Positions 1,792 through 19,986 of a stretch of DNA of 20,711 nt are shown piece by piece (positions within the stretch are counted from its first letter, which is position 1; each line of letters starts with the position of its first letter). Under the pieces are notes generated by a model, which saw only the letters and a program-made list of their open reading frames with translations, was not told the origin of the DNA and made no database searches. The translations under genes and the position numbers were made by a program. This DNA comes from a virus, in the IMG/VR virus record IMGVR_UViG_3300021599_003039, positions 1-20,711 of that record. One strand, 5' to 3'.

Positions 1792-1810
1792 CATACCCTC
1801 GGCTCAGAGC
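1792..1810 (+). promoter_or_regulatory. CATACCCTC promoter element (copy 1)
   Basis: CATACCCTC lies at 1792-1800 with a TAnnnT -10-like box at 1794-1799. Six bases later comes AGAGC (1806-1810), where transcription could start. The gene at 1822 follows after a short leader. No conserved -35 box is visible 16-18 bases upstream. The same arrangement precedes most operons in this window. Confidence 0.6.
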
Positions 1811-1821
1811 TGGCGCTGCCG

Positions 1822-3318
1822 TTGAATCCGTATCAAGACTGGGATCCGTGGGCAGGCGGTTTTGATCCGGCCCAGCAGGGGATGAATGTCTCCTTTGACC
1901 TGACCGAGCAGGCCTACCGGACCCTGCGCAGTCAGGGCCTGAGCGAAGAACAGGCTGCTGCCGTCCTTCAACACCGCAACACGCGTCAGTCGAGAACCGG
2001 CCTGAGCCTGTGGGATCCAACGCGCCTGCAGCAGCGGCCGGCATATTCCGGTCCGGCGCCCTGGAACTTTAAAGTTGGCAATGGACTGACGGCCGAAGAA
2101 GCAATCCAGGCCAAGGCAACTGAGCGTCGCCAAGTGCAGAAGCGCAATGCGGAGCTCAACGTCCGTCGAATGGGCGAGGCCACTGCGCTGGAGACTGGCC
2201 CCGGTTTCCTCGGTGCTGGCGCCATGGCAGGCGTCACCCCTCAGCTGCCGCCCGCCCTCGCTGCTGGTCGCCCGATTGGCGTTGATGACGGCCTGGGGTT
2301 TGATCCCCTTGCCCTGGCCACGGCCGGCGCCAATCCGCTCAAGATCGACAGCACTCTCAGCTCGCCCTCTTCTCAGCCGATGCAGCGGGGCAGTGGCGGG
2401 GCAAGCCTCGATCCCCTCCAGGCCAGCCTGGCGGCCGTGGACATGGCCAGCTCAGTGCTGCCGTTGACGGGCGGCCAGTCGACGGTTCCGCCGGCGCCAT
2501 CGCTGGTTCCGCAGCCGGTGGTAGCTCGCGTCGGGCTTACGCGCGATGCCATTGAAGAGGCCATCGGTCGCCGGGCGCCCTCACCTGTCAACATCGCCCC
2601 CGATGTTGCGCCTGTGCCCAATGTCTCCGGCGGCGGCCCTGGCACCTCCACCGCCAAGGGCGAAGCCACCGTTGCCCGCCAAGCCGCCAAGCGCGGCGGC
2701 CTTGGCCTTGTTGATGACGCCCTTGGTGCTCCTGATCTGGGCATTGGCGGGATGGCGCAGCGCGGTCTTCAACGCGCCGGTGCAGCCGCCCGTTCTGGCG
2801 GCATGAAGAACCTCGGCAACGCGCTCTATCGCGCTGGTGGCGCCGCGCGCGTGCTGGCACCCGCTGCCGCTTTTGGCGGCGCTGTTCTCCCTGCTGTGTT
2901 CGGTGCCATAGATGGCTACGGCCAAGCCGGCACTGGTGGTGCGCTGATCCAAGGCGGCACGGGCGCAGCTGGCGCCCTGGCCGGCGGGGCCATTGGCACC
3001 GCAATCCTCCCGGGCGTTGGCACGGTGATCGGCGCTGGCATCGGCTCGATGCTCGGCAGTGGCGCCGGCAGCGGCCTCACCGGCCTGGCCCAGGGTGCCG
3101 TTGAAAAAGCTCAGGAAGGCGACACCGGCTTTATGGGCAGCATCGGCCGCGCCCTGGATCCGCTCATTGAGACTGACTTCGAGAAAGAGCAGAAGGCCGT
3201 CCTGCAGCAAATGAACTCACCCGCCATGCAGGCGATTCGGCAGCAGGAGCGCACCAGGCAAGAGATCGCGCGTGCCGATCAAGCACAAGCCCTGTTAATG
3301 CAAGCCTATCTCCGCTGA
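1822..3318 (+). CDS. large Gly-zipper protein, probable internal or ejection virion protein
   Basis: A 498-residue protein starting with TTG, placed 12 bases after the AGAGC block of the promoter element. The N-terminal 125 residues are mixed polar (PWAGGFDPAQQG, then helical segments rich in Glu/Arg). The middle (130-330) is Pro/Gly/Ala-rich and probably disordered. Residues about 340-425 form a long Gly/Ala hydrophobic region with repeated GxxxG spacing (GAAGALAGGAIGTAILPG, then IGAGIGSMLGSGAGSG), and 452-495 are a charged helical tail. That order suits a protein that packs with DNA or other proteins in the head and later inserts in the host membrane, as ejection proteins of short-tailed phages do. 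This is inferred. No named family was recognised. An alternative start is the ATG at 1882. Confidence 0.75.
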   Translation: MNPYQDWDPWAGGFDPAQQGMNVSFDLTEQAYRTLRSQGLSEEQAAAVLQHRNTRQSRTGLSLWDPTRLQQRPAYSGPAPWNFKVGNGLTAEEAIQAKATERRQVQKRNAELNVRRMGEATALETGPGFLGAGAMAGVTPQLPPALAAGRPIGVDDGLGFDPLALATAGANPLKIDSTLSSPSSQPMQRGSGGASLDPLQASLAAVDMASSVLPLTGGQSTVPPAPSLVPQPVVARVGLTRDAIEEAIGRRAPSPVNIAPDVAPVPNVSGGGPGTSTAKGEATVARQAAKRGGLGLVDDALGAPDLGIGGMAQRGLQRAGAAARSGGMKNLGNALYRAGGAARVLAPAAAFGGAVLPAVFGAIDGYGQAGTGGALIQGGTGAAGALAGGAIGTAILPGVGTVIGAGIGSMLGSGAGSGLTGLAQGAVEKAQEGDTGFMGSIGRALDPLIETDFEKEQKAVLQQMNSPAMQAIRQQERTRQEIARADQAQALLMQAYLR

Positions 3319-3322
3319 TCCC

Positions 3323-3721
3323 ATGGCAGCTCCAGCATTCGATTACGGCAACCTGCTGACGGCCCAAGCCCGCGGCAACTATCAAGTCCAGCGTCAGGGT
3401 GCTGCAGCGGCTCAGGCCGCCCTGGGGAATACTCAGAACTGGGCCGGCTTGGCCGCGGCAACCTCGCAGTCCGCCGCGCAGCGTGATGCCGCCACCATCA
3501 ACGCCGCCGCCGCCACAGCCCAGCAGGGCATCAGCTCCTACGGCAGCCTCGCTAGTTCGATCGTCAACGCCTATGGCGGCATCGCCCAGCAGGGCATCAG
3601 CAGCAAGGCCTCCGTTGCAGTCGCCGACAAGGCGATTGAGCAGGAGAAGGTGCGGCGCGGCAGTGGTATTGGCGCTATCGCCGGCGCTGCAGCTGGTCTG
3701 GCTGGGCTCTTCATCGACTAG
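3323..3721 (+). CDS. small Ala/Gln-rich virion-like protein with C-terminal Gly-zipper
   Basis: A 132-residue protein beginning at the ATG five bases after the previous stop. Most of it is Ala/Gln/Ser-rich and predicted helical (for example QAALGNTQNWAGLAAATSQS). The motif QQGIS occurs twice (around residues 67 and 92) in related contexts, hinting at an internal duplication. The C-terminus is a short charged segment (EQEKVRRGSG) and then a Gly/Ala hydrophobic stretch, IGAIAGAAAGLAGLF, ending in ID. The architecture resembles the 179-residue and S74-domain neighbours. The function is unknown; an internal virion or ejection component is my inference. Confidence 0.75.
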   Translation: MAAPAFDYGNLLTAQARGNYQVQRQGAAAAQAALGNTQNWAGLAAATSQSAAQRDAATINAAAATAQQGISSYGSLASSIVNAYGGIAQQGISSKASVAVADKAIEQEKVRRGSGIGAIAGAAAGLAGLFID

Positions 3722-3724
3722 CCC

Positions 3725-3743
3725 CATACCCTCGCCTTAGAGC
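3725..3743 (+). promoter_or_regulatory. CATACCCTC promoter element (copy 2)
   Basis: CATACCCTC at 3725-3733 (box TACCCT 3727-3732) is followed six bases later by AGAGC at 3739-3743 and by the ATG at 3760. It starts just after the stop codon of the previous gene. Confidence 0.6.
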
Positions 3744-3759
3744 GCAGCACTAAAACGGC

Positions 3760-4284
3760 ATGGCGGGCAATTACGGGCTAGCAGATCCCGGCTCTGTTCT
3801 GCAGAACGTCCCTGACTATGGCAATGCCGTCGCGGCATTAACCCCCCCGTCAGGACAAAGCTCAGGAGGTGGAGCGGATCCCGGGCCAACCGGCATTGTT
3901 TTTGTTGACGGCAAGGGTTACCGCCGACGCAAAGGCCTTGATGCCAACGGCAACGTCATCTACCGAGATCTCACAACGGATGAGCGCAGGATGAATGCCG
4001 GGCAGTATTCCTGGGGCATCGCAGGGATTAACCAACAAACAGCTGCGATTACCGCAAGTACGCTTTCTCGAGATAAGGATCGCACGCAGGCGGGCGATCA
4101 GTTCGCGGCCTCCATGGCGCAGCAAACCCGCCAGATGGAGCTCAACAACGATCTCCTTAGAGAGAAGCTCGGCGTAGAAGATCGCCACTTCCAGCAGCAG
4201 ATGGCCCTAGACGAGCGCAATGCGCGCCGCACAAAAGTCCTGGGCTCGCTCACACTGATTGCCCAGTCCCTGCAACGTCTCTGA
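3760..4284 (+). CDS. unrecognised virion-region protein with coiled-coil C-terminus
   Basis: A 174-residue protein. Residues 1-45 are Gly/Pro/Ser-rich. A compact segment around 45-75 (IVFVDGKGYRRRKGLDANGN) could be a small beta domain. Residues about 110-165 are a charged Gln/Leu-rich helix (MELNNDLLREKLGVEDRHFQ) that probably forms a coiled coil. It is led by its own promoter element and is followed by the gene at 4306 after 21 bases, so the two are probably one transcript along with terS. Base use is somewhat less GC-rich than the neighbours in the region around 4020-4090. No family was recognised and no function is proposed beyond a likely virion or packaging-associated role. Confidence 0.72.
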   Translation: MAGNYGLADPGSVLQNVPDYGNAVAALTPPSGQSSGGGADPGPTGIVFVDGKGYRRRKGLDANGNVIYRDLTTDERRMNAGQYSWGIAGINQQTAAITASTLSRDKDRTQAGDQFAASMAQQTRQMELNNDLLREKLGVEDRHFQQQMALDERNARRTKVLGSLTLIAQSLQRL

Positions 4285-4305
4285 TCAACTAACGGGAGAA
4301 CACTC

Positions 4306-4875
4306 ATGGCTAACTGGTGGGACGAGGCTTACTCCGACATCACAAAGTGGTCGGTCAATGCCGATCAGCTCAACAAGGATCGCGGCGCCTACAAGGACGC
4401 GTTCCAGATGAACGCTGCAGAGAAGGGCATCAACTACGAGCTCACCTCACGGCTGATGAGGGAGTCCACCGACCAAGAGCGGGGGATGATGCAGCTCTCA
4501 GCCGATCTGGACCGTCGCAACACCCTGGATCTGATGACGGGTGAGCATCAGTTCAAGATGGCTGGCATGCAGGAGTCCAACCGTCTCTCCAAGGATTACC
4601 TCGCTGCCCAGGGCTATCAGGAACGCGAGACCGTGGCCGAGCAAGGCAACCAGGCTCGCCGCACCCAGGAGGTCACCAACCGCGGCATGACGGATGTGGA
4701 AGGCATTCGCGCTGCTGCCTCCAACTACGCCCAGGATTCCGAGTCGCAGCGCGTCGGTCTCAAAGGCCGCGAAGATCGCGAGCTGGTTCGCACCCAGGGC
4801 GATGAGCAGCGCCGCACCACCTCGTTTGAGCGGGAGCACGCTGCTGGGCTGGCCACTCGCATGTCGCGGCGCTGA
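4306..4875 (+). CDS. unrecognised charged helical protein upstream of terS
   Basis: A 189-residue protein with a good ribosome site (GGGAGA, 4292-4297) before ATG 4306. It opens with a Trp-rich start (MANWWDEAYSDITKWS) and is otherwise almost entirely charged and Gln-rich helix (for example STDQERGMMQLSADLDRRNT, and EGIRAAASNYAQDSESQRV), with a basic end, RMSRR. Heptad-like spacing suggests a long coiled coil or helical bundle. Its stop overlaps the terS start (TGATG at 4873-4877), so the two are probably translationally coupled. A scaffold-like, internal or packaging role is possible. I cannot choose among these from the sequence. Confidence 0.72.
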   Translation: MANWWDEAYSDITKWSVNADQLNKDRGAYKDAFQMNAAEKGINYELTSRLMRESTDQERGMMQLSADLDRRNTLDLMTGEHQFKMAGMQESNRLSKDYLAAQGYQERETVAEQGNQARRTQEVTNRGMTDVEGIRAAASNYAQDSESQRVGLKGREDRELVRTQGDEQRRTTSFEREHAAGLATRMSRR

Positions 4876-5308
4876 TGACGGCCCTGGTCAAGCATGAGTC
4901 ACCTGTCGAAGGCTGGCTCTCTTCCCTGCCAGAGCGCAAACGCTCTGCCGCCCTGCAGTACGCCGCTGGTGAGCGCTCGATCGTCGCGTCCTACCTCTAT
5001 TGCGCCCTGCTGGGGATGGATGCCTCCATTGATGACTGGGAGGCCTACGCGATCAGCCGGTGGAAGAAATTGGACCACCGCGCCATTCTCGAAACCGAGA
5101 TCATGGCGCTCCATGACGACATCTCGGAAATTCGCCGTGCCGTTGAGGAGGGCAAGATCACGATCGCCGCAGCATGTTGCTGGCTGGCGTGGAAATCACC
5201 AGCAAGATGCTGCGCAAGGTGTTCGGGCGCGACACCAATGTCTGGCCGGCGATTGAAGCCACGGTCGAATCGGTGTTCGCAGAGATCGAGGCGAAACACC
5301 AGTCATAG
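4875..5308 (+). CDS. terS: terminase small subunit, interrupted by an apparent frameshift
   Basis: This lies directly before the large terminase and has the size (about 144 residues) and helical character of small terminase subunits, which bind the packaging site as a ring and hand the DNA to TerL. The first 95 residues read from ATG 4875 to EEGKIT near 5162. The coding sequence then clearly continues in the -1 frame as DRRSMLLAGVEITSKMLRKV and ends in EAKHQS at TAG 5306-5308. Without a shift, the starting frame runs to 5447 as a Cys/Arg-rich shadow through a promoter element. One missing base in ATCACGATC (5157-5165) would restore a single frame (KITDRRSM). No slippery heptamer is visible, so a sequencing or assembly indel, or a real mutation, is likelier than programmed slippage. 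The TerS assignment is by position and shape. Confidence 0.65.
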
Positions 5309-5331
5309 CCTGTGGCGCGGCCAAAACCGGC

Positions 5332-5340
5332 CATACCCTC
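5332..5340 (+). promoter_or_regulatory. CATACCCTC promoter element (copy 3), before terL
   Basis: CATACCCTC with -10-like box TACCCT at 5334-5339, starting 24 bases after the terS stop. Unlike the other copies, it is about 107 bases from the most likely start of the next gene (ATG 5447), and no AGAGC block follows. Confidence 0.5.
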
Positions 5341-5373
5341 GCTGCATGCCCCGGATTTTTTTCTGGCAATTTT

Positions 5374-5389
5374 CCTCGCGCACGCGAGG
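5374..5389 (+). other. perfect hairpin in the terL leader
   Basis: CCTCGCG-CA-CGCGAGG is a perfect 7-base inverted repeat between the promoter element and the terL start, preceded by a T-rich run (TTTTTTT at 5356-5362 on the upstream side). There is no downstream T-run, so it is not a terminator for the plus strand. It could be a leader RNA structure or chance in GC-rich DNA. Confidence 0.4.
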
Positions 5390-5446
5390 CCCTTCAGACA
5401 AATCGGGCAGGGGCTCAACAGATTTGTTCGCACCGGAGAAGCGCTG

Positions 5447-6994: not shown

Positions 6995-6997
6995 GAC

Positions 6998-7013
6998 GCC
7001 GCAGGAAAGCGGC
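6998..7013 (+). other. short hairpin between terL and the next promoter element
   Basis: GCCGC-AGGAAA-GCGGC lies just after the terL stop and nine bases before CATACCCTC. It has no T-run, so it is not a standard intrinsic terminator. It could slow or protect the 3' end of the terL message, or be chance. Confidence 0.3.
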
Positions 7014-7021
7014 AGCCGCTC

Positions 7022-7040
7022 CATACCCTCAGATCTGAAC
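7022..7040 (+). promoter_or_regulatory. CATACCCTC promoter element (copy 4), before the portal gene
   Basis: CATACCCTC at 7022-7030 (box TACCCT 7024-7029), then TGAAC at 7036-7040 after six bases, and the GTG start at 7051 preceded by AGGG (7043-7046) as a ribosome site. Confidence 0.6.
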
Positions 7041-7050
7041 GCAGGGTGCC

Positions 7051-9330
7051 GTGAGCCTCGACGAACAGCGCTTTCAAGCCATCCTCGAGGCCGCCCGCTC
7101 GCGCACGGCAAACGATGGTGTCGACACCATGGTGGTGGCGGCGCATCTCGCCCAGATGCGCCTGTTCATGGTTCGCCAGGGACTGGAGTTCTTTGCCCGG
7201 CAGGACAGCTTCTCTCAGCGCCGCGAATTCCTGCGCCGCGTTGTTGACTACAACGAGCTGCCAGGGCGACTCGAAGCAATCATTGATTCGTTCCTGATTG
7301 ATGGCCGCGGCCTGCTGTATTTTAGGCCTAGTAAAGATCTTTATCGCATTCACTTCTTCTCGAAAGATCAGTTCAGGACGTACTACGATGAAGAAGGTGG
7401 TTTAGAAGAAGTCCAGGTGATATACAGCTTCCGCGTGCGGCCGCCGCGGGGCTTTGGTTCTGGTCTCGGTGCTGAGCAGTTCAATTTCAATGCAGCCGGT
7501 GGCGGCAGCAACAGCGAGCTGCGCTGGATTCGCTTGTCGATCTACGCCGATCGGATCGAGCAGGTCATCACCAACCAGAAGCCCGACTTCAGCACTGAGG
7601 CGGTGCTGGGCGGCCAGGTCAAGTCGCTCACCAACACGCTGGGCTTCATCCCGGCGGTGGAGATCTTCAACAACCGCGGACTGATTGCCGGCTCTGGCCA
7701 CGGCGAGTTCGATGCCGTTGCCGCTCACATCCTGCAGCACGACAGGATGGTCAAGGCGATCAAGAGCAACCTCAGCTTCTTTGGCGGGCCGACGTTGGTC
7801 TCGAGCCGTCCGAAGCACGATCTGCTTGAGCCTGACGGCGAGGGCAGTGGCTACAAAGCCACGATCAGCAGCAACTCAGGCTTTGTTGGCCTGAGCCGTG
7901 CCAGCACGCGCTCTTCGGATCCGGCGCCTGGTGCCTTTGGTGGTGGCTTCCGCGTGCCGCGCATCATTGCCAACGTCGAGGCTGCCGATCGCGTCGCCTA
8001 CATCACGCCAGATGCCGTCAGCGGTGATCTGACGATGTACGCCCAGCAGTATCAAGAGATGATCCGCTCCGCCCTGGGCGGCGTGGACGATCTCTCGATC
8101 AACAGCGGCGCGACGGCCTATGAGGTGCGCACGCTTTATGGGCGGGTGGCCGCTACTGCCAAGAAGAAATGCCGCGATGTCTTCGAGTTCGGCTTCTGCA
8201 AGCTGTTCTCCTTGATGGTCACCCACGAGGAGACGCTGTTCCGTGAATCGCTTGGTCAGGCACTGGGCATCAAAAAACCTGAGCCGGTGATTGCTGAGGA
8301 GCTCGACCTGCCGCCTGAGGAGGTTGCAGAGCTGGAGCAGAAGTACGAGGAGGCAATGGGCAAGTGGCGCCAGCAGATCGGCGAAACCATCAACCAGATC
8401 AAAGAAACCGGCGAGGTGCCGCCGCAAGTGGTGGGCTTGATTCCCGATGGGTCGGCCTCCATAGACTGGAGGTGGATGGGGGAGATCTTCGAGGATTCTC
8501 CACAGGAGATCCTGCAGAACTCAATGGTCTGCAGAAACCTCCAGGAGCTCGGCGTCTCTTCTATCGAGGCCCTTCAGCATCTCTTCCCTCCACAAACTCC
8601 AGAAGAACGCGCCGCCATGCTGAACGGTTATCCGTTCCGCATGGTGGAAGCCACCCAACGATCGGCAGGTGTGTTCCTGGACATGCTGAGAGGCATGTTC
8701 CAGGTGCCGCACCCTCAAGAGCCTGATTTGCCCCTCGCGGCTGATCCCAATCTTGATGTCACTCCGTTCATCTATCGCACTCTCGACTTCCTGAGGCGAG
8801 AGTTGTCCTACTCAGGCAAGTACAACGATGTCGACCCAGCAAGTCTCCCAGCCACCCTCACAGACGCCGATCGCCTACGCGCCTCCCGCGGAGAGCCAAC
8901 AGAGCTGGAGCAACGCCGCGCCGAACGGCGGCGTGATGCCTTCGGCTCCTATCTCGCCGATGCCTGGGCAACCGGTGGCGGCACCTACACCAGCCAGCTG
9001 GGATTCGGGGCAAGCTCAGTGGCAGCAGGCGTTCAATCAGCTGGTCGGAGCGCAGACGCCGACTTCGCCCTACCAGGGCTGGGCGGCACCCTCTCTTTCG
9101 ACCCCCAGCGGCCTGACGCAGGCGCAGGTGGGCAACTGGGCCCAGGGCCAACAGGTGGCATCGGCGCCCCAGATCTCCTCGCCCCAAGCAACGCAGGGCT
9201 TGTCGGCGGCGGACGTCCAGTACCTGGCGGCCCAGGCGGCGCAGCAGACAATGGCGCAGCAGGCGCAGGCTCAGCAAATGGCGCTGATGCAGGCCGCCGC
9301 CGCTCAGCAGGGCGCCGCTCAGCGGGGTGA
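7051..9330 (+). CDS. portal protein
   Basis: A 759-residue frame directly after terL, where the portal gene usually lies. It has the expected mix: helical N-terminus (AILEAARSRTANDGVDTMVV), a middle with the segment GFIPAVEIFNNRGLIAGSG (about 211-229), a DxxSINSGATAYEVRTLYGR-like helix region (about 346-365) and a long Glu-rich helix (about 420-450) resembling the stem and wing helices of dodecameric portals. The product forms the gate through which TerL pumps DNA. GTG 7051 follows AGGG. From about residue 593 the frame is overlapped by the next gene in the +1 frame, and the last roughly 90 residues are Gly/Pro/Ala-rich with poor GC at third positions. The true C-terminus may differ from 9330. 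An AT-rich patch lies at 7320-7430. Confidence 0.85.
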   Translation: MSLDEQRFQAILEAARSRTANDGVDTMVVAAHLAQMRLFMVRQGLEFFARQDSFSQRREFLRRVVDYNELPGRLEAIIDSFLIDGRGLLYFRPSKDLYRIHFFSKDQFRTYYDEEGGLEEVQVIYSFRVRPPRGFGSGLGAEQFNFNAAGGGSNSELRWIRLSIYADRIEQVITNQKPDFSTEAVLGGQVKSLTNTLGFIPAVEIFNNRGLIAGSGHGEFDAVAAHILQHDRMVKAIKSNLSFFGGPTLVSSRPKHDLLEPDGEGSGYKATISSNSGFVGLSRASTRSSDPAPGAFGGGFRVPRIIANVEAADRVAYITPDAVSGDLTMYAQQYQEMIRSALGGVDDLSINSGATAYEVRTLYGRVAATAKKKCRDVFEFGFCKLFSLMVTHEETLFRESLGQALGIKKPEPVIAEELDLPPEEVAELEQKYEEAMGKWRQQIGETINQIKETGEVPPQVVGLIPDGSASIDWRWMGEIFEDSPQEILQNSMVCRNLQELGVSSIEALQHLFPPQTPEERAAMLNGYPFRMVEATQRSAGVFLDMLRGMFQVPHPQEPDLPLAADPNLDVTPFIYRTLDFLRRELSYSGKYNDVDPASLPATLTDADRLRASRGEPTELEQRRAERRRDAFGSYLADAWATGGGTYTSQLGFGASSVAAGVQSAGRSADADFALPGLGGTLSFDPQRPDAGAGGQLGPGPTGGIGAPDLLAPSNAGLVGGGRPVPGGPGGAADNGAAGAGSANGADAGRRRSAGRRSAG

Positions 9331-9952: not shown

Positions 9953-9955
9953 GCC

Positions 9956-10836: not shown

Positions 10837-11469
10837 ATGCCTCTTCAATTCGCTGCGCCGGGTTCTCTCGGCCGCGGCCGCAAGCCACAGGAGGTGCCGC
10901 CACCCAGCGGCGCCCTGATGACGCCGGCCACCAATGAAATGCCCGGCTTGATGCAGACCGCTGGCGACAACCTGCACCTGCAGGGCACGCCCGCACGGCC
11001 TGGCTTCAGCGCTCAGGTGCAACCGCTGGCTCGCCCCGTGGATCCCGGTGATCTCGAGGCTGCCGGTTCCGTTGGTGATCCCTACAAGCTGGGTGCGATG
11101 GCATCCCGCGCTGAGGTGCGCACTCAGGCGCTCGACACACCGCAGCAGATGATGCAGCGTGCCGAGCAGATGGGCAGCAACCGCAGCAACCAACAACTGC
11201 AAACCGAGATGCACGGCGCTGGGTCTCTGGCCCAAGCCGTCGCCGCGCCGCAGCTGGCGCAGAAGGCCCTCGGCCAGCAGCGGCTGATGAACCAGCAGGT
11301 GGCGCAGGCCACCGGCCAGGATCAGACCGGTGCGTTGGCGGATGCCCAGGCCCATGAGTTCAGCGCCCGCTACCGCCAGGGCGTGATGGACGAACGGCAG
11401 CTGGCCACGATCGACAACCTTGCTGCACGGATGGCATCCGGCGGCACGGCTTTCGCCATCGGAGGTTGA
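10837..11469 (+). CDS. unrecognised Gln/Met-rich protein
   Basis: A 210-residue protein starting at ATG 10837, eight bases after the previous stop. The frame runs further upstream, but there it overlaps the previous gene as a shadow. The first 75 residues are Pro/Gly/Arg-rich and probably disordered (LGRGRKPQEVPPPSG). Residues about 85-200 are Gln/Met/Ala-rich helix (DTPQQMMQRAEQMGSNRSNQ; LGQQRLMNQQVAQATGQDQT), and the end is TAFAIGG. The composition is like structural phage proteins. The next gene's ribosome site (GGAGGT) covers the last codons, so the pair is probably co-translated. The function is unknown. Confidence 0.72.
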   Translation: MPLQFAAPGSLGRGRKPQEVPPPSGALMTPATNEMPGLMQTAGDNLHLQGTPARPGFSAQVQPLARPVDPGDLEAAGSVGDPYKLGAMASRAEVRTQALDTPQQMMQRAEQMGSNRSNQQLQTEMHGAGSLAQAVAAPQLAQKALGQQRLMNQQVAQATGQDQTGALADAQAHEFSARYRQGVMDERQLATIDNLAARMASGGTAFAIGG

Positions 11470-11472
11470 GTC

Positions 11473-12054
11473 ATGTCTCGTCGTTCAGGTCGCCGCACCC
11501 CCACGGCGGCTGAGATGGTGCATCCCGCCGTCAACGCTCACCTTCAGGCTGGGTATGAGGCAACTGGTGGCGAGGTGATTCCTCGCCAGGAGCTGTTGAT
11601 GACGCCGCAGGTTGGCGTCGCTCCGCGAGCAGGGTTTGACGCGCGATATGCGCAAGAGGACTCGGAGATGATGCGCTCGATGCCGGGCGTTCAACCTCCT
11701 GACTACCAGGCCTTCGCCGATGCCGATGACATCGCGGCCAGCCGCGCCGGTGGCAGTGGAGCCGCCATCGGTCCAGGGCAAATCCAAGGATTCCAGGGCT
11801 ATGCACAGAATCCACTGGAGGAGGAGGGCCGCGCGCGCATCGGCCAGCAGTTCATGCAGGCGCCCTTGGGCGGCCATGTGCGCGATGCCCTTGATGGTCA
11901 GGAGATCTTCGGTCACACGATCACCAATCGCCAAGCCCGCATGGCCGAGCAGGGCCTGGCCGGTCTGACTGCTGTTGGCGTTGGCGTTCCCGCCTTCATG
12001 GCCGCTGTGCAGCAGCTCAGCACCCCCCAGGATCAGAACACCATTCCGTTCTGA
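11473..12054 (+). CDS. unrecognised virion-region protein
   Basis: A 193-residue protein beginning at ATG 11473 with a strong ribosome site, GGAGGT (11461-11466). The start is basic (MSRRSGRRTPTA), followed by a helical segment, an Asp/Ala-rich middle and a Gly/Gln segment (SGAAIGPGQIQGFQGYA). Residues about 160-180 form a hydrophobic Gly/Ala stretch (GLAGLTAVGVGVPAFMAAVQ) that could cross or touch a membrane, and the protein ends NTIPF. No family was recognised. It closes the run of four genes after the portal, and a promoter element begins nine bases after its stop. Confidence 0.72.
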   Translation: MSRRSGRRTPTAAEMVHPAVNAHLQAGYEATGGEVIPRQELLMTPQVGVAPRAGFDARYAQEDSEMMRSMPGVQPPDYQAFADADDIAASRAGGSGAAIGPGQIQGFQGYAQNPLEEEGRARIGQQFMQAPLGGHVRDALDGQEIFGHTITNRQARMAEQGLAGLTAVGVGVPAFMAAVQQLSTPQDQNTIPF

Positions 12055-12062
12055 ACTTGATC

Positions 12063-12082
12063 GATACCCTGCGCCATAGAAC
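12063..12082 (+). promoter_or_regulatory. CATACCCTC-type promoter element (copy 5)
   Basis: GATACCCTG at 12063-12071 (box TACCCT 12065-12070), then AGAAC at 12078-12082 after seven bases, then the TTG start at 12094. It would drive the small gene at 12094 and the muralytic enzyme. Confidence 0.55.
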
Positions 12083-12093
12083 CCGCAGGTGCC

Positions 12094-12378
12094 TTGGATC
12101 GCTTAGCCGCCTCACCGGAAATCGTCGAAGCGATCACCCGTCACTTCCGCAGTGATGGAGTGCCGCCCACAGCCGCTGGTCACCTGGCGGCTGAGGTGGT
12201 TTCCCACCCGGATGACATCGACACCAAGGTGAGTCGCTTCCAGGATTTCCTGGCGAATTACCGCAGCAAAGGCTTCAGCGATGAGGCCGCGCAAAACCTG
12301 GCAGTTGAAGCGCTGGAGGGCGGCGAGGAACCGTCACGCTCCAGGCGCTACCAACTGCTGTCTGAGGAGCAGAAGTGA
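12094..12378 (+). CDS. small helical protein upstream of the muralytic enzyme
   Basis: A 94-residue protein starting with TTG, with GCAGGTGCC immediately before it, almost the same leader end as the portal gene. It is charged and helical throughout (SPEIVEAITRHFRSDGVPP; DEAAQNLAVEALEGGEE) with no membrane segment, so it is not an obvious holin. Two segments of similar layout (a helix followed by G/V-P or F-S-D-E-A-A) might be related halves. The stop overlaps the enzyme's ATG (TGATG, 12376-12380), so the two are probably translationally coupled. It could be a chaperone, an inhibitor or a structural partner for the enzyme, but nothing in the sequence decides this. Confidence 0.7.
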   Translation: MDRLAASPEIVEAITRHFRSDGVPPTAAGHLAAEVVSHPDDIDTKVSRFQDFLANYRSKGFSDEAAQNLAVEALEGGEEPSRSRRYQLLSEEQK

Positions 12379-13166
12379 TGGCACAGATCAGCGCCAATGA
12401 GCGTGCCGCGCTCGACATGATCCGCATGGCGGAAGGCACCTGGCACGGCGGCGGACAGAAGGGCTACGGCACGATGTTCGGCGGCGGCCAGTTCGACTGG
12501 AGCAAGGGCCACCCCGATCGCGTTGTGCGCAGTGGTGGCTATGCCTCGGCCGCGGCGGGCGCCTACCAGTTCATGCCGGACACCTGGAAGGGTGTGACGA
12601 AACAGCTGGGCGTGAGCGCCAGTGACTTCTCGCCAGAAGCGCAGGACCGCGCTGCACTGCAGTTGATTCGCAACCGCGGCGTGGATCCCACCAAGCCGAT
12701 GGATACGGCGATGCTGGCCAAGCTGGCGCCGGAGTGGGCGTCGCTGCCGACCGCCGCTGGCAAGAGCTACTACAACCAGCCGGTGAAGGGGCAGAAGGAA
12801 CTGCTCAGCTTCTACGGCCAGCGCCTGGGCGCAGCGCCCAACCCTGGCAATCAAGCGCCCGCAGCCGCCCCTGCTGGAGGAGCGGCCATTGCCGGCGTTG
12901 TTAGTGGTGGCGGCGGTGCCCTGGCCGGGATTGATTTCGCTTCTCTGTTTGGTGACAGCAGCTCACCTGTTAATCGCCCCGTCGGGTCTGCAGCGGCCGC
13001 GGCGGTGTTGCAGCAGCAGCGGCAGGAGATCAACAGCACGGCGCCGATGCTCAACTCGGTGCGCCGTCAGGCCATCACCCGCATGGCGGGCAGCCCTGGC
13101 CCCAGCTTCATGCAGCAGCTGCTGGAGCTGACGCAACGGCCGGGGGCTGGGCAATTTCTTGCTTGA
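12378..13166 (+). CDS. lambda-R-type (GH104) muralytic enzyme with long C-terminal extension
   Basis: A 262-residue protein. Residues 1-155 follow the layout of the lambda endolysin R family, lytic transglycosylases that cleave the glycan strands of peptidoglycan. The segments are LDMIRMAEGT (12-21, with the likely catalytic Glu19 at the same position as in lambda R), FGGGQFDWSKGHP, AAGAYQFMPDTWKGVTKQLG, DFSPEAQDRAALQLI and PEWASLP. Residues 160-262 are extra compared with the roughly 158-residue lambda enzyme. They are Ala/Pro/Gly-rich with a Gly/Ala hydrophobic stretch (GGAAIAGVVSGGGGALAGI) and a helical end. There is no signal peptide or anchor and no holin nearby. The extension and the location among virion genes make a virion-carried lysozyme at least as likely as a free endolysin. 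The ATG overlaps the previous stop and follows GAGGAG. The last 59 bases overlap the convergent minus-strand gene. Confidence 0.88.
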   Translation: MAQISANERAALDMIRMAEGTWHGGGQKGYGTMFGGGQFDWSKGHPDRVVRSGGYASAAAGAYQFMPDTWKGVTKQLGVSASDFSPEAQDRAALQLIRNRGVDPTKPMDTAMLAKLAPEWASLPTAAGKSYYNQPVKGQKELLSFYGQRLGAAPNPGNQAPAAAPAGGAAIAGVVSGGGGALAGIDFASLFGDSSSPVNRPVGSAAAAAVLQQQRQEINSTAPMLNSVRRQAITRMAGSPGPSFMQQLLELTQRPGAGQFLA

Positions 13167-13983
13167 GTAGCGGCGGTCCCTCGGGCCGCGGCAGATCGTG
13201 GCTGGTGCCTGGCACCCGGCGGCCGCCACCTTCTCGCCGCTGCAGCAGTGAGCCGGGTGCGCGGCGGGTGAGCACCTGGGGCATCAACATCTCGGCCTGC
13301 AGCCGCTCGTGGCCGCCGGCGCGGGAATCACGCAGGAAGCGATCGGGTGTCCTGAACTTCCGTGCCAGACATTCGGCCTGGGCCATCCAGGTGCCGCGCA
13401 GTGCCGCGATCAAGCCCTCGGTGGCGAGGGAGTCGTAATAGAGCATCGGCGCGTCCACCGAGCGGGGCGAGTGATGCAGCCGCCCTTCGGTGCCGGTCAG
13501 CTTGTAGATCCACTCGGCCACCAGCTGCGCCTCCTCAAAGCTGTAGCGGCTGAGGTTGAGGCGGCCATTGCAGTAGTTGGCGCCACGGGTCATCAGCACC
13601 CGGCCGCGGTCAGCCCAAAGCGCACCAATGGCTTCAGCACCCAGGAGCTCAAGGACCGCAGAGCTGAGGCGGAAGCCGTCGGGATAGAGCAGGTGGAAGG
13701 CCGTCTCAAAGCTCTTGCTGCTCACCCGTAGGCGCCACTGCCCTGTACCTGCCTTGCCGTCTCCGGTGGGGTGGTACTTGGGCTCTTTGGTGGTGGGCAG
13801 GAACTGGCGCAATCGCCGCCACTGGTAGTGGGTGTATTCCTTGTGTGCACTGGGTTGATGTAGCTGCAGGGAGTAGGTGCGACTGCACAGGCAGATGGAG
13901 CCCCGCCCCAGGCAGTAGCTCAGCACGAGGCGGGTGAGAGCGGCGGACTCATCGGGGTTGAGGCGGGCACGGGTCTGGCTCAT
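13108..13983 (-). CDS. LAGLIDADG homing-endonuclease-like protein, apparently lacking catalytic acids
   Basis: This is the only minus-strand gene. From ATG 13983 it is 291 residues long. Residues about 14-195 show the two-motif layout of LAGLIDADG proteins. The first motif region is ALTRLVLSYCLGRGSI (15-30). The second, EAIGALWADRGRVL (117-130), is followed by RYSFEEAQLVAEWI, as after the second motif of this fold. Where active enzymes carry an acid before the Gly (xxGDG, DDG), this protein has Arg27 and Arg126. Residues 200-291 are Arg/Pro-rich and end in an Ala run. It may be a decayed or repurposed homing protein, for instance a DNA-binding regulator (WhiA is a known non-cutting relative). 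A promoter element faces it at 14012-14020. The upstream part of the open frame (to 14025) overlaps that element, so I prefer ATG 13983. The family call rests on motif layout only. Confidence 0.62.
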   Translation of the reverse strand: MSQTRARLNPDESAALTRLVLSYCLGRGSICLCSRTYSLQLHQPSAHKEYTHYQWRRLRQFLPTTKEPKYHPTGDGKAGTGQWRLRVSSKSFETAFHLLYPDGFRLSSAVLELLGAEAIGALWADRGRVLMTRGANYCNGRLNLSRYSFEEAQLVAEWIYKLTGTEGRLHHSPRSVDAPMLYYDSLATEGLIAALRGTWMAQAECLARKFRTPDRFLRDSRAGGHERLQAEMLMPQVLTRRAPGSLLQRREGGGRRVPGTSHDLPRPEGPPLLKQEIAQPPAVASAPAAAA

Positions 13984-14011
13984 CGGCTGGGCGGCGTCCT
14001 TACACAGGCAA

Positions 14012-14020
14012 GAGGGTATG
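14012..14020 (-). promoter_or_regulatory. CATACCCTC promoter element (copy 6), minus strand
   Basis: GAGGGTATG on the plus strand is the exact reverse complement of CATACCCTC. On the minus strand it lies 28 bases before ATG 13983, the same distance class as for the plus-strand genes. The AGAGC block is not obvious here; AAGGA follows instead. Confidence 0.55.
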
Positions 14021-14038
14021 CACACTCAGCAATAAGCA

Positions 14039-14054
14039 CAGGCCTCGTGGCCTG
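14039..14054 (+). promoter_or_regulatory. hairpin enclosing the capsid gene start codon
   Basis: CAGGCC-TCGT-GGCCTG is a perfect 6-base stem with a 4-base loop. The GTG start (14047-14049) lies across loop and stem, and there is no Shine-Dalgarno sequence before it. If formed in the message it could limit initiation; it may also be chance. Confidence 0.35.
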
Positions 14055-15270: not shown

Positions 15271-15309
15271 TTCGGAGGCCATCCCTAACCAACATCGAGG
15301 TTCCATCTA

Positions 15310-16068
15310 ATGGCTGAGACTTACAAGAAGATTTTCCCGGGCAACTGGGTAGAGCGCATCAGCGCCTACCCTCTGCCCAACGCTGACTTCAAAAAGAACA
15401 AGCGTCCCTCTGGCGATCCCCACGATCGTCAGCAGCAAGGCGTGCTCTATATGCCCGGCGCTATTGCCGTGCACAAGGTGGGCTACGTCCACATTGAGGG
15501 CGCCATTCCCGCCGGTACTGGCGTGGTCGGCTACGGCGTCACCATCCCCTCCCCTGATGCGCGCGGCGACGACAAGCCCCGCGCTGATGTCGCCGGCCTG
15601 ATTGTTCCCTCCGGCGCTTACATCTACCGCATCGGTCTGCGGGTGCCCCGGGTTGCTCTGCAGCCTGGCTCCTTCAGCTCCGGCGCCAAGGATCCCGCCA
15701 GTGGTGATCTCTCTGGCCTCATCGCCAACGCTGGCACCAAGCTCTGGCTGGAAGCCAAGGCTGGCGCCCCAACCGCTGCTCCTGCGGACTCTGGCACCGT
15801 CGCCGCTGCCGGCTCCCACACCGGTCCCCTCACCGTGGGTGGCACTGGTGAGTTTGCGGCCGACGAGTTCAGCAACTCCCTGCTGACTCCTGTGGCCACC
15901 ACCTCGGAGCAGGAGTTCAAGATCTATGCCGACAAGGGCGGCCTGGGCTCCACCTTCCTCGGTGGCGTCTATCTCGTCGCTGAGGTCTGCTACATCGTCG
16001 AAGACGCTGTGGCTGACTTGGAAAGTTTAGTGCTCCCGGGCGCGCGCTATTCAGGATACACGGGCTAA
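15310..16068 (+). CDS. probable capsid decoration or second head protein
   Basis: A 252-residue protein 39 bases after the capsid gene, with GAGG (15297-15300) before ATG 15310. It is rich in Gly, Ala, Pro and beta-forming residues (GAIPAGTGVVGYGVTIPSPD; GLIVPSGAYIYRIGLRVPRV), with a Gly/Ala/Thr linker around residues 150-180 and no membrane segment. This reads as a beta-sandwich protein made in large amounts. It shares the capsid transcript and is followed by the only clear terminator of the window, which closes the capsid operon. A cement or decoration protein on the head surface is the likely role, inferred from position and composition. No named family was recognised. Confidence 0.72.
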   Translation: MAETYKKIFPGNWVERISAYPLPNADFKKNKRPSGDPHDRQQQGVLYMPGAIAVHKVGYVHIEGAIPAGTGVVGYGVTIPSPDARGDDKPRADVAGLIVPSGAYIYRIGLRVPRVALQPGSFSSGAKDPASGDLSGLIANAGTKLWLEAKAGAPTAAPADSGTVAAAGSHTGPLTVGGTGEFAADEFSNSLLTPVATTSEQEFKIYADKGGLGSTFLGGVYLVAEVCYIVEDAVADLESLVLPGARYSGYTG

Positions 16069-16089
16069 TTAGCTCTTTTGAATCATATC

Positions 16090-16115
16090 AAGCCCGGCTA
16101 ACTACCGGGCTTTTT
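16090..16115 (+). terminator. intrinsic terminator after the capsid operon
   Basis: AAGCCCGG (16090-16097) pairs with CCGGGCTT (16105-16112) around a 7-base loop, CTAACTA, and runs into TTTTT (16111-16115) followed by ATTGTTT. It lies 22 bases after the stop of the decoration-like gene. The remaining gap up to 16204 shows no promoter element or gene. Confidence 0.92.
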
Positions 16116-16204
16116 ATTGTTTGAACGGCGGGCGACTGGTTCGCTCAAGGCGCGCTCGACGCTCCAGCCGGCCACCTTGATGCGGTGATGCAGCGTTGAT
16201 CGTC

Positions 16205-16561
16205 ATGGTCAAGGGGCCGGACGGAGTGCCCTACTACGCCTCGCTGGCGCAGCTGATGCCCTGCGACGACAAGGGCACGCCTGACTTTGATGCCCGCTAT
16301 GAGAAGCCGGAAGATCCCGAAGAGGCCATCCCCGCACCGGTGATCGACATCATCGAGACGCGGCTCAACATCAATACCGCCACCGCTGAGGAGATCGCCC
16401 GCCGGGTGCCGGGCCTTGGCTACCGCACCGCCAAGAAGCTCAAGAGCCTGCAGCTCACCCTGCCGGGCGAGGTGTTCCGCAACCTGGATCAGCTCAAGGT
16501 CAGCAGCACCCGGGTGAACTGGGACGAGATCTTCCGTCAGAACCAGATCTTCCTCGGTTAA
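16205..16561 (+). CDS. small helix-hairpin-helix (ComEA-like) protein
   Basis: A 118-residue protein starting at ATG 16205 (TTG 16196 is possible). After a short N-terminal part (VPYYASLAQLMPCDDKG) and an acidic linker, residues about 56-100 carry a helix-hairpin-helix of the ComEA type: LNINTATAEEIARRVPGLGY, then RTAKKLKSL, where the PGLGY turn is the hairpin that contacts the DNA backbone without sequence preference. A second partial motif (FRNLDQLKVSSTRV) follows, as in ComEA repeats. There is no signal peptide, unlike secreted ComEA. Between the capsid operon and a possible head-completion gene, it could be a DNA-contacting connector or head-filling protein. That role is a guess. The HhH reading is firm on motif grounds. 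Confidence 0.8.
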   Translation: MVKGPDGVPYYASLAQLMPCDDKGTPDFDARYEKPEDPEEAIPAPVIDIIETRLNINTATAEEIARRVPGLGYRTAKKLKSLQLTLPGEVFRNLDQLKVSSTRVNWDEIFRQNQIFLG

Positions 16562-16595
16562 GCGCTGGCTCGCTCGTCTTACACCCCATATCGAG

Positions 16596-16609
16596 GCCCC
16601 TTTGGGGGC
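16596..16609 (+). other. hairpin abutting a promoter element
   Basis: GCCCC-TTTG-GGGGC is a 5-base stem whose last C is the first base of the CATACCCTG copy at 16609. It may be the 3' end of the upstream message or act with the promoter. There is no T-run. Confidence 0.35.
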
Positions 16610-16628
16610 ATACCCTGCGATCAAGAGC
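16609..16628 (+). promoter_or_regulatory. CATACCCTC-type promoter element (copy 7)
   Basis: CATACCCTG at 16609-16617 (box TACCCT 16611-16616), then AGAGC at 16624-16628 after seven bases. The gene start is at 16639 (or GTG 16633). Confidence 0.6.
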
Positions 16629-16638
16629 TTGAGTGGCC

Positions 16639-17133
16639 ATGCGGCTGAATGATTACGACATCAGCCGCGCCGCCTTTCACTTGGGGATGAATGATGGCAG
16701 CCAGGTGCCTGCCGGTGACATGGCGCGCTTCGAGGAGTCCGTCAATCGCATTCCCGACAGCCACTGGTACGACCGCATCGTCAACCAGTTGGACCGCTGC
16801 GATCGCGCTTGGTATGCCAGCGAGGTGCTCAAGGATGTGAGCAGCACGGGTCAGCTGGCACCCAGCCGCACGCAGAACATCTTCGGAGATGCGAACAGGT
16901 CCATTGCGATCTCCGATCCGCTCAATGCCGATAGCCAGTACCGCGAGATCTACCTGCGGGAATGTGATCGCCTGGCCGAATCGCTGTTCGTCGCCAACTA
17001 CCGCCGCGAAGAGGTGAGGCGTTACGCCTTCGAGCGCAGTGGTGGTGACTTCATCCTCAGCTGCCCTGGCCCCGCAGACACCTCCCCCGGCACACGCATC
17101 CTCGAATTCACCGGTGGCCTGGGTTGGCGCTGA
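16639..17133 (+). CDS. possible head-completion or adaptor protein
   Basis: A 164-residue protein from ATG 16639; GTG 16633 would add two residues. It is mainly helical and charged (LNDYDISRAAFHLGMNDGSQ; SHWYDRIVNQLDRCDRAWYA; YREIYLRECDRLAESLFVAN) and ends with a short beta-like tail, TRILEFTGGLGWR. Small helical proteins of this size placed after the capsid genes are commonly head-tail adaptors binding below the portal. I found no decisive motif, so the role is inferred from position and fold character. It has its own promoter element and is followed by a weaker one at 17142. Confidence 0.65.
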   Translation: MRLNDYDISRAAFHLGMNDGSQVPAGDMARFEESVNRIPDSHWYDRIVNQLDRCDRAWYASEVLKDVSSTGQLAPSRTQNIFGDANRSIAISDPLNADSQYREIYLRECDRLAESLFVANYRREEVRRYAFERSGGDFILSCPGPADTSPGTRILEFTGGLGWR

Positions 17134-17141
17134 GTGCGCTC

Positions 17142-17160
17142 AATACTCTGCAGGCAGAAG
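17142..17160 (+). promoter_or_regulatory. weak copy of the CATACCCTC promoter element
   Basis: AATACTCTG at 17142-17150 (TACTCT 17144-17149), then AGAAG at 17156-17160 after six bases, then ATG 17171. It has the same layout as the stronger copies but one base differs in the box and one at the front. Confidence 0.4.
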
Positions 17161-17170
17161 TGGCTAGCTG

Positions 17171-18211
17171 ATGGCACGGCGCGTTTTCATTGACGGGCAG
17201 TGGGTGGATGCACCAGATGCACCCATTCTCCCCCCTGCACCGCAGCAGGTGGCCACGGGCTCGCCGCCGCCCTCGGTGCCGCAACCCGCTGGTGTGGCCA
17301 GCCTGGAGAACGCCAGTGCAGTGATCAGGGACATGAGCGGCAGCTTTGGAACGACACCGCGCATTGCGCAGGATGCGCCGGTCGTGAGAGACCAGAGCGG
17401 CCTAAGCATTGGTGGCAGCCCGCTGGCCGCGTCCGCTGGTGCCGGTGGTGCTGGCACCTGGCGATCACCCGAGGATCTGCATCTGGCTCGGCGCCGTGCC
17501 TTCCTTGATGGCAAGGATTCGATGGCCGGCCTGAAGGCGGTGCGCGGTCTGCTGGCTGAGGAAGTCGCCAACCGCGGCGGCGACGTCAGTGCCGGTGGCT
17601 CCATCCCCTCGGTGTCATTCCTTGAAGGGCAGCTGGCCAAGCTCGGTCCCTACAGAGGGATCAAGACGAATGAGAAGGGCGAGTGGACGGTGAGCAACGA
17701 CAAGGCCGGCGAAGACGCCACGCTGGCCGCAATGGCGTTTGATCCGCAGCAGCCCACAGCCGCGGGCAGTGGGCTGACTCCCGGGCAAATGGCTGGCGTC
17801 GGCCTTGATCCCGCCACGCCGCAGCTGGCGCCGTCGGGCAACTTGCCCCAGGCGGCCGTCAATGAATGGATGCAGACAGCGCTGCGCGGCAAGGTGAGCG
17901 CCGGCCAGCAGCCCCTCGATCAAGTGGCGACTTGGCAGGTCACGCCGCAGCCGATTCCCGGTCTGCGTCAGGATCCCGGCCGTGAGGCCGCCCTGGCTGC
18001 CTTTGCGGCACGCCGTGAGGCCGCACCCACCAGCCCGGGCGAAGCCCTGTTGGCTGTCGGCGCCGGCAATGCCTATGGCACTCGCGCTGGTCAGTTCAAG
18101 CCCGGCAACACGATGAACCTGGGTTTCTTTGATCCCAGGCAGCTGAAGCCGCTGAACAGCGACGGCCATTACAGCGGCTACAACCCCGGCAACTTCCAGG
18201 CGCTGTTCTGA
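17171..18211 (+). CDS. unrecognised Pro/Gly/Ala-rich virion-like protein
   Basis: A 346-residue protein. It opens with MARRVFIDGQWVDAPDAPIL, a short beta-like start, then a disordered Pro/Gly/Ser stretch to about residue 90, helical segments (RRRAFLDGKDSMAGLKAVRG; LLAEEVANRGG) and further Pro/Gln-rich linkers. It ends with an aromatic/Gly tail (NLGFFDPRQLKPLNSDGHYS...ALF). I do not recognise a family. The final TGA overlaps the next ATG (TGATG, 18209-18213). The composition matches other structural proteins here. A tail or internal virion role is inferred only. Confidence 0.72.
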   Translation: MARRVFIDGQWVDAPDAPILPPAPQQVATGSPPPSVPQPAGVASLENASAVIRDMSGSFGTTPRIAQDAPVVRDQSGLSIGGSPLAASAGAGGAGTWRSPEDLHLARRRAFLDGKDSMAGLKAVRGLLAEEVANRGGDVSAGGSIPSVSFLEGQLAKLGPYRGIKTNEKGEWTVSNDKAGEDATLAAMAFDPQQPTAAGSGLTPGQMAGVGLDPATPQLAPSGNLPQAAVNEWMQTALRGKVSAGQQPLDQVATWQVTPQPIPGLRQDPGREAALAAFAARREAAPTSPGEALLAVGAGNAYGTRAGQFKPGNTMNLGFFDPRQLKPLNSDGHYSGYNPGNFQALF

Positions 18212-18873
18212 TGGATCCCCTTAAGAAAGCCACCCGGCCGGCCACTGATTACATGGGCCGCGGCAGCGATCCAGGCAACGTGCCGGTGGCGCGGGGTCAA
18301 AAGCTGGCGCAGCAGTTCTATACCCAGCCTGGAGCGCGGGTGCCGAACAACACGATGGTCGGCAACCAGATCCAACAGGAGCTGGCGGCATCGGATAACG
18401 CCCGCATCAGCAGCAATCTTTACGGCGACTGGCGGGCGCAGAACCTGCCGGGCACGGGCGTGAACTACGGCATGCAGGCCCCCGCCTGGGGTGCTGGTCG
18501 GGCGATGGCGCCGCAGGGAATGCCTGAAACCGAGGGGCTGGGTGATTTGCGTTGGGCCGGACAGGTCAATGGCGCTGGCGGCCCGTTGATGGGTCCGCCA
18601 AATGAGTGGGTTGCCAACCCAGGGCTGGCGAAAGAAACCGCGCGCTATCCAGACACCGGTCAGCCAATGGGCCTGCCGCTGCCGGCTTCACCGCCGATGG
18701 GACTGGAGGATCTCGCCAGCTCTCAGAGCCTGATGCCGGCTGCGCCGGACATGATGTTTGCCTCGCGCGTTGAGGGGCACCCGGCCGAAGCAGCGCTGCC
18801 CGCTGCTGGCTTTGGCGCTACACCCACCCAGGGCGGCATGCCGCCTGCAATGCCACAACCTAAGGAGGCCTGA
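18211..18873 (+). CDS. unrecognised Pro/Gly/Met-rich protein
   Basis: A 220-residue protein starting at the ATG that overlaps the previous stop. It has few predicted helices after about residue 75 and many Pro, Gly, Met and Asn residues (NYGMQAPAWGAGRAMAPQG; PMGLPLPASPPMGLEDLASS), so it is probably extended or disordered, like virion linkers or minor tail proteins. The ribosome site of the next gene (AAGGAGG) lies in its last codons. The function is unknown. Confidence 0.7.
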   Translation: MDPLKKATRPATDYMGRGSDPGNVPVARGQKLAQQFYTQPGARVPNNTMVGNQIQQELAASDNARISSNLYGDWRAQNLPGTGVNYGMQAPAWGAGRAMAPQGMPETEGLGDLRWAGQVNGAGGPLMGPPNEWVANPGLAKETARYPDTGQPMGLPLPASPPMGLEDLASSQSLMPAAPDMMFASRVEGHPAEAALPAAGFGATPTQGGMPPAMPQPKEA

Positions 18874-18877
18874 TCTC

Positions 18878-19954
18878 GTGAACAAGAAGAGCAAGGCCAA
18901 TCCCGCCACGAACCAAGCAGACAAGCAGCGGATGGCAGGCGAGGTTTGGCGGGAGTATGACGCCAGCAGCCAGGGCGGTGCTGGTTTTGATGGCAAGGAT
19001 CTCAAGCAGCTGGTGAAGGATGGCTGGAGTTACAACAACATCTACAAAGCAGCAGCCGCGGCGGGTCATGTCAACGCCAATGCGGATCGTCAGCTGAAGT
19101 TACTTGGCACCAAAGAAAGCAAGTATTCACCGCTGAAGAAAGACGGTTTCCGCGTGCCCGGGGACGTGTTCTATGGCGCGGTTGATATGTTCGGCGAGGG
19201 CGCCAATGACTCTGAATCATTACGCAATCGCGTGCGCTTCCTCGGTGGTGATCCCAACAAGGCCAAGAACTGGATTACAGCCAACAGCGACAAGGACAAA
19301 GCAAGCGCCCAGGCGTCGTCGTATTACGGCTCACTGGGTAATGACGATGGCTTGAGTTGGCATCGCCCCAACACGCGCTGGTCTGACGAAAAAGGCAAGC
19401 AGCAGGATGTCTACACCTGGGGCGGCCTGGACGGCGAGGGTCGCGCGCTGGCCTTGAACGGGATCTCGATCAAGGGAGATGACTCCAAGTTCAACCGCCA
19501 AAACCGCGGCACCAGCTGGACGCTGCCTCAGGATGTGGTGCTTGATCGCCGCAGGGGTGATGTCGAGACCGCGCTGGCAACGATCAATGCTGAGAAGCCT
19601 GCAACACCGGCCGATGGCGCTGGCGGCTTGACGCCAGAGCAGCCCAAGACGGTGCCGACGTTCAACTTGAATGATTGGACGACATCGTCGCCCTCGGTGT
19701 CCAACGAGACGGCGGTGACCAATGAATCCACGAGCAGTGGTTCCAGTGATAACTACAAGGTGATCGCGCCGAAGCCGGTCACGCCCGACATCGGCGACGA
19801 TTCCTTCTACATCGGCGGCTTTGAGAGCAAGATCAACAAGCTCTACGACAGGCCAATGGACTGGACTGGTGATGTGTGGGATCAGGGTGAGTCGAACCGC
19901 TTTGCCTCGTCGTCGCGCTTCCGCGAGGACCTGCGCGATCGCACCGGCTTCTGA
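18878..19954 (+). CDS. unrecognised virion-region protein with Ser/Thr-rich linker
   Basis: A 358-residue protein starting at GTG 18878 after a strong ribosome site, AAGGAGG (18862-18868). The longer open frame from 18758 is a shadow over the previous gene. The N-terminus is basic (MNKKSKANPATNQADKQRMA), followed by a compact part rich in Asp, Lys and Tyr (VKDGWSYNNIYKAAAAAG; KYSPLKKDGFRVPGDVFYG) to about residue 235. A Thr/Ser/Pro linker (about 245-305) leads to an acidic-aromatic end (DDSFYIGGFESKINKLYDRP) closing in RDRTGF. It is more hydrophilic and Lys-rich than its neighbours. I recognise no family. It could be an internal or tail-associated protein. Confidence 0.72.
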   Translation: MNKKSKANPATNQADKQRMAGEVWREYDASSQGGAGFDGKDLKQLVKDGWSYNNIYKAAAAAGHVNANADRQLKLLGTKESKYSPLKKDGFRVPGDVFYGAVDMFGEGANDSESLRNRVRFLGGDPNKAKNWITANSDKDKASAQASSYYGSLGNDDGLSWHRPNTRWSDEKGKQQDVYTWGGLDGEGRALALNGISIKGDDSKFNRQNRGTSWTLPQDVVLDRRRGDVETALATINAEKPATPADGAGGLTPEQPKTVPTFNLNDWTTSSPSVSNETAVTNESTSSGSSDNYKVIAPKPVTPDIGDDSFYIGGFESKINKLYDRPMDWTGDVWDQGESNRFASSSRFREDLRDRTGF

Positions 19955-19977
19955 GCACTGCCGTGAAGGTTGGGCGC

Positions 19978-19986
19978 CATACCCTC
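19978..19986 (+). promoter_or_regulatory. CATACCCTC promoter element (copy 8)
   Basis: CATACCCTC with box TACCCT at 19980-19985, 22 bases before ATG 20009. An AGAGC block is not clear; ACGAG follows after nine bases. CCTCG (19983-19987) could also pair with CGAGG (19996-20000) in the leader. Confidence 0.55.

Follow-up and report, generated by a model that had tools for sequence, protein, structure and literature searches.

The window, by which we mean the whole 20.7-kb stretch of a virus record that was analyzed (63% GC), encodes a large terminase subunit, a portal-like virion protein, an endolysin-like protein and a major capsid protein. Its capsid protein shares 61.5% identity with that of Synechococcus phage S-EIV1, and homologues with 66-90% identity are common in IMG/VR. 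From the kinship with S-EIV1, we infer that the host is a picocyanobacterium. The window was compared with a close clade of contigs, labelled G001-G011 (portal identity 68-87%), on which genes were called from codon usage in this analysis and not taken from curated annotation. These contigs are fragmentary, and the early genes fall outside them. Because some of the contigs are near-identical copies of one another, sites were clustered ahead of statistics. S-EIV1 replication genes were looked for in G012 and among the clade contigs and found in neither, and a search for the early region of the clade through scans with flanking genes and long DNA patterns yielded no further clade contig. One candidate, L301, was rejected as unrelated (42% GC).

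A short sequence with the core ATACCCT recurs between the genes of the window (Table 1). Exact CATACCCTC occurs six times versus 0.11 expected from shuffles, and ATACCCTS, which adds the close variants at 12063 (two mismatches to CATACCCTC) and 16609, occurs eight times versus 0.34 expected. All eight copies are intergenic and point at the downstream gene; thus, the eight good copies listed by the sequence-only reading are real. That reading had also listed two weak copies. A two-mismatch search with the 9-mer returned 52 matches in the window versus 47 expected, which is chance level, and these copies are indefensible from the window alone; both are upheld by the relatives, which carry perfect ATACCCT in the orthologous gaps. 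The further claim that the copies stand just before gene starts holds for orientation and intergenic location and needs amendment at 5332, where a small ATG follows after 5 nt and the start of terL after about 107 nt. Directly ahead of the major capsid gene (14047), the plus strand carries no copy.

Table 1. Copies of the element and an intrinsic terminator in the window.
Feature	Position	Strand	Predicted +1	Downstream gene or context	Remark
Weak copy AATACTCTC	515..523	+	529	529-1248 (tail-fibre-like)	+1 is the A of the gene's ATG, leaderless mRNA predicted; G004 and G008 have AATACCCTC in the orthologous gap
CATACCCTC	1792..1800	+	A 1806	1822-3318 (tape-measure/tail-lysin-like)	
CATACCCTC	3725..3733	+	A 3739	3760-4284	
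CATACCCTC	5332..5340	+	A 5346	Short ORF, then terL	+1 is the A of the short-ORF ATG; terL start ~107 nt further
CATACCCTC	7022..7030	+	~7036-7037	7051-9330 (portal-like)	Same gap of six relatives also has the element
GATACCCTG	12063..12071	+	~12077-12078	TTG-started gene 12094, then 12375-13166 (endolysin-like)	
CATACCCTC	14012..14020	-		LAGLIDADG-like gene	28 nt before ATG 13983
CATACCCTG	16609..16617	+	A 16623	16633/16639-17133	phrog_29158 match
Weak copy AATACTCTG	17142..17150	+	A 17156	17171-18211	Perfect ATACCCT in orthologous gaps of G001, G002 and G009
CATACCCTC	19978..19986	+	A 19992	20009-20524	
Intrinsic terminator	16090..16120	+		After capsid-gene operon	8-bp stem, T-rich tail

Several neighboring genes showed features of their own. 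The gene upstream of terL (4875-5308), which probably encodes the small terminase subunit, aligns with its relatives in two different frames, and about 16 residues are lost at the junction, as would result from a deletion and frameshift, either real or an assembly error. The similarity of S-EIV1 TerL (KJ410740.1, 54080-56620) to the window clade is split in two around residues ~210-530, which suggests that it may carry an intein or other insertion. The major capsid gene of G009 (10847-13558) is in three pieces, separated by inserts of ~370 and 1120 nt that are likely self-splicing introns; Rfam gave no match at gathering cut-offs. Beside the capsid gene of the window, on the opposite strand, stands the LAGLIDADG-like gene (13108-13983, minus strand) with its own copy of the element, and relatives keep both. 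Its Pfam LAGLIDADG_2 match is weak and lies below the cut-off of that family.

Position and orientation of the element were then computed over about ten clade contigs. In 9.7 kb of upstream DNA, ATACCCT was counted 55 times in the sense direction and 5 times in antisense, and in 322 kb of coding DNA it was counted 4 times on both strands together, which makes its density about 450-fold higher in upstream-sense than in coding DNA. Equal density within genes or on the wrong strand, named beforehand as the outcome that would speak against the element, was therefore not what we found. The copy at G001 20103, counted as coding, belongs to the same orthologous gap as window 19978 and overlaps a called gene only at its end. 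Whole clade records hold up to 14 ATACCCTS on one strand versus 0-2 on the other, the reversed control giving 0, and the element is present in 45 of the 66 clade gaps of 25-95 nt. It is also conserved: in ten orthologous gaps (32 pairs), the computed identity was 97% for the core and 43% for the flanks. Every copy seen, on contigs that cover the structural module, lies in that module; judged from gene content alone, this location would fit late use.

Outside the clade, an enrichment in distant S-EIV1-like relatives was rejected since ATACCCTS is about as common there as its reversed control, and an enrichment of CATACCCTC in S-EIV1 was rejected on its single copy. In eight whole picocyanobacterial genomes, CATACCCTC stays near its control (50 versus 36 copies in total), and its copies are mostly scattered across genes and on both strands. 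A literature search for the letters of CATACCCTC gave, among the matches listed, only unrelated ones.

The alignment of 62 sites (53 clusters) reads T-16 C-15 C-14 A-13 T-12 A-11 C-10 C-9 C-8 T-7 S-6, and the consensus of the aligned sites is TCC-A-TACCCT-S-N4-C-A(+1)-G. As the sites were picked by their core, the strictness of the core in this logo is partly built in, and the tolerance of variants served as the correction: upstream of genes there is enrichment of ATACTCT, of ATACCTT and of variants with another first A, and no changes at -11, -10 and -7 were seen. Downstream, the computed logo shows C-1 in 62%, A+1 in 64% and G+2 in 57% of sites, with no information at positions -5 to -2. Among 52 non-redundant sites, an A stands at the fixed offset in 33 (p ~5e-13, background 18%) and a G or A at +2 in 46. 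Of the fixed downstream block described earlier, C(-1) A(+1) G/A(+2) at a constant distance is thus retained, and AGAGC as such is not conserved. The logo of 53 clusters contains no -35 signal, which bears out the earlier statement that a common -35 box is absent; likewise, no TTGACA-TATAAT promoter was found in the window, versus 2.8 expected by chance.

T-12, A-11 and T-7 are retained, and we therefore refer to TACCCT as a "-10 box". Its assignment to the TAnnnT type, with a start 6-7 nt on, is backed by position, orientation, phylogenetic footprint, the start-base signature and the -10 boxes of sister phages. RNA would accordingly be predicted to start at the +1 position of this alignment. 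The ATG falls exactly on the predicted +1 A at window 515, window 5332 and G009 21678, so leaderless mRNAs are predicted there; elsewhere, the predicted leader has a median length of ~16 nt.

We also weighed whether the element acts in RNA, as a start-associated sequence or leader structure, and is not a promoter. Its spacing to start codons is rather regular (median 21 nt), and GAGG/CAGG/AGGG are somewhat more frequent in the leaders than in shuffles (22 versus 14.7, sd 3.1). Pairing between leader and motif, only slightly above shuffles, was set aside. However, it is the distance to the A that is fixed, whereas that to the start codon ranges from 5 to >100 nt; CCCT is unable to serve as a Shine-Dalgarno sequence, and the gaps of the clade would be left with no alternative promoter. 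A role in RNA is consequently very unlikely. An operator or stoperator of a phage repressor would also be an asymmetric intergenic repeat in one orientation, as in L5-type phages, but an element placed exactly at the -10 position, with a start-site signature, and confined to the structural module as far as seen makes such a function scarcely credible.

Two further structures were noted next to the element. Some copies come after a shared block TCTYACACCCCATAT and a G+C hairpin whose end directly adjoins the element (window 16572-16617; G002 ~17236-17274, 20578-20617 and 21942-21979); block and hairpin may form a terminator or an additional regulatory site. In one orthologous leader (G001 ~28220-28275, G002 ~21972-22030, G009 ~30136-30190, with the virion genes turned to plus), the CCCTG of the element could pair with a CAGGG that precedes a T run ahead of the start codon, and the pairing would enclose a CCCCTTGTTAGGGG hairpin. 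A terminator could form from this leader in read-through RNA and would be impossible in RNA begun at the element.

Taken as a promoter, the element has to be set against those of sister phages and hosts. The sister S-EIV1-like phages G013 and G025, of similar GC, carry TAGAAT/TAGACT between stop and start codons, and upstream DNA of S-EIV1 is enriched for TAAACT, TAGAAT and TATAAT. In the window clade, TACCCT stands 60 times sense and 5 times antisense, and all TAnnnT outside TAC[CT][CT]T amount to 14 sense and 16 antisense. TACCCT has taken over from other, host-like TAnnnT boxes throughout this clade, as these counts record. Among TAnnnT boxes, three picocyanobacterial genome samples prefer others, for example TAGGGT, TAGGAT and TAGAGT, and do not prefer TACCCT, of which 0-1 copies were found upstream of genes versus 1.1-3.1 expected. 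The uniform CCC is therefore foreign to the hosts examined (three genomes for -10 usage), which suggests a dedicated reader.

These boxes bear directly on the alternative that the sites are ordinary sigma-70-type promoters of the host, read by its housekeeping or a group-2 sigma factor, and that CCC is a habit of the clade without a reader of its own. The conservation of T-12, A-11 and T-7, the predicted start at a normal distance and the host-like boxes at similar places in sister phages would all fit. The TAnnnT frame and a predicted start ~7 nt on are indeed shared with picocyanobacterial sigma-70 promoters, from which the element differs in lacking a -35 box and the box that hosts use. The -35 box is weak in cyanobacteria generally. 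A host sigma factor would nevertheless be tolerant of the inner bases, but the clade gaps retain no other TAnnnT, TACCCT stays below its expected count ahead of genes in the host samples, and -13, -14, -15 and -6 are constrained as well. We consider ordinary host promoters unlikely for these reasons.

A promoter for a single-subunit RNA polymerase of the T7 type, made by the phage, was a further candidate. The conserved stretch from -16 to -6 with +1/+2 overlaps the region read by such enzymes, and the early region of the clade, in which a polymerase gene might lie, is outside the contigs. However, no PF00940 gene was found in S-EIV1-like records, in a search in which the positive control Syn5 scored E 4e-77 and which covered the clade outside its early region. 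In Syn5, the promoter word spans 15 bp (ATTGGGCACCCGTAA) and is dissimilar to the element, which in turn shows no continuous word of at least 15 bp reaching to the start site and carries no information from -5 to -2. Moreover, the kept TAnnnT frame and the TAGAAT boxes of the sister phages indicate recognition of the sigma type, and a T7-type promoter is improbable.

After weighing these alternatives, we regard the element as very probably the core of a single-element promoter, presumably a late one, a reading drawn from sequence comparison. Such a promoter would consist of TACCCT at -12 to -7, extended by (T)CCA upstream and by C/G at -6 downstream, without a -35 box. Transcription would start at an A ~7 nt downstream (C-A-G at -1 to +2) and produce leaders of ~16 nt, and two or three copies would give leaderless mRNAs starting with AUG. 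Many virion genes or small operons of the structural module would each have their own copy. The reader is probably a factor made by the phage. The host RNA polymerase might carry either a sigma-like specificity factor encoded by the phage or a co-factor from the phage by which recognition of the -10 region is altered. The sequence-only reading had proposed a phage-modified host polymerase or an activator, which stays an inference. The available records contain neither Sigma70_r2 nor, among S-EIV1-like records, the T4 gp55 family, the early region of the clade being outside the contigs in both searches. Of the weak matches to sigma region 4 in distant relatives, the best (G015) is a small HTH protein and was discarded. 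The gene for a specificity factor would be expected in the early region of the clade. We hold it about evenly balanced whether the clade switched the promoters of its structural genes from host-like TAnnnT to TACCCT while encoding a specificity factor, possibly non-homologous to known ones, that enables cyanobacterial RNA polymerase to recognise and melt a C-rich -10 box in the absence of a -35 box.

For uncultured phages that infect freshwater picocyanobacteria, these results provide a predicted promoter map that names position, strand and start base, and the TACCCT box can be used to spot further contigs of the clade. A natural comparison is available in the sister phages, whose capsid genes are related but whose -10 boxes, at similar places, are host-like. 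With it, how phages came to control a cyanobacterial RNA polymerase can be tested directly, as can candidates for the factor.

Among known systems, the start-associated sequences of cluster K mycobacteriophages are also short, asymmetric sense repeats before gene starts, clade-specific and rare in the host, but they are 13 bp long, partially complementary to 16S rRNA and directly abut start codons (PMC3203893). In contrast, the element of the window clade stands at promoter distance, a median of 21 nt from the start codon, with a start-site signature and a C-rich core unlike a Shine-Dalgarno sequence. Syn5, a T7-like cyanophage of Synechococcus, likewise uses a promoter word; however, its 15-bp word serves a single-subunit RNA polymerase, whose gene was not found in the available S-EIV1-like records. 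The host-type boxes of the sister S-EIV1-like phages (TAGAAT/TAGACT, TATAAT) share the TAnnnT frame and the location between stop and start codon, but their inner bases vary, whereas in the window clade these are CCC throughout, and positions -13 to -15 and -6 are constrained as well. The late promoters of T4 (gp55, gp33, gp45), with ~50 copies per genome, similarly consist of a short box in the -10 region alone, the -35 region not being conserved (PMC2988020); their box is A+T-rich, unlike the present one, and a gp55 homologue is absent from the available S-EIV1-like records. The gp36-dependent middle/late promoters of phiEco32 (tAATGTAtA, start 6-8 bp downstream, ahead of late genes) resemble the element as a single ~9 bp element without a -35 box (PMC8948821). 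There, the phage sigma factor is known and tested and the element is A+T-rich, whereas here the sequence is different and C-rich and the factor is a prediction. T4 late and phiEco32 gp36 promoters are both read by the core polymerase of the host together with a small sigma factor from the phage (PMC2988020, PMC8948821). Because T4 and phiEco32 are the best precedents, we propose that a phage sigma-like protein acting on host RNA polymerase would be the most likely reader of the TACCCT element.
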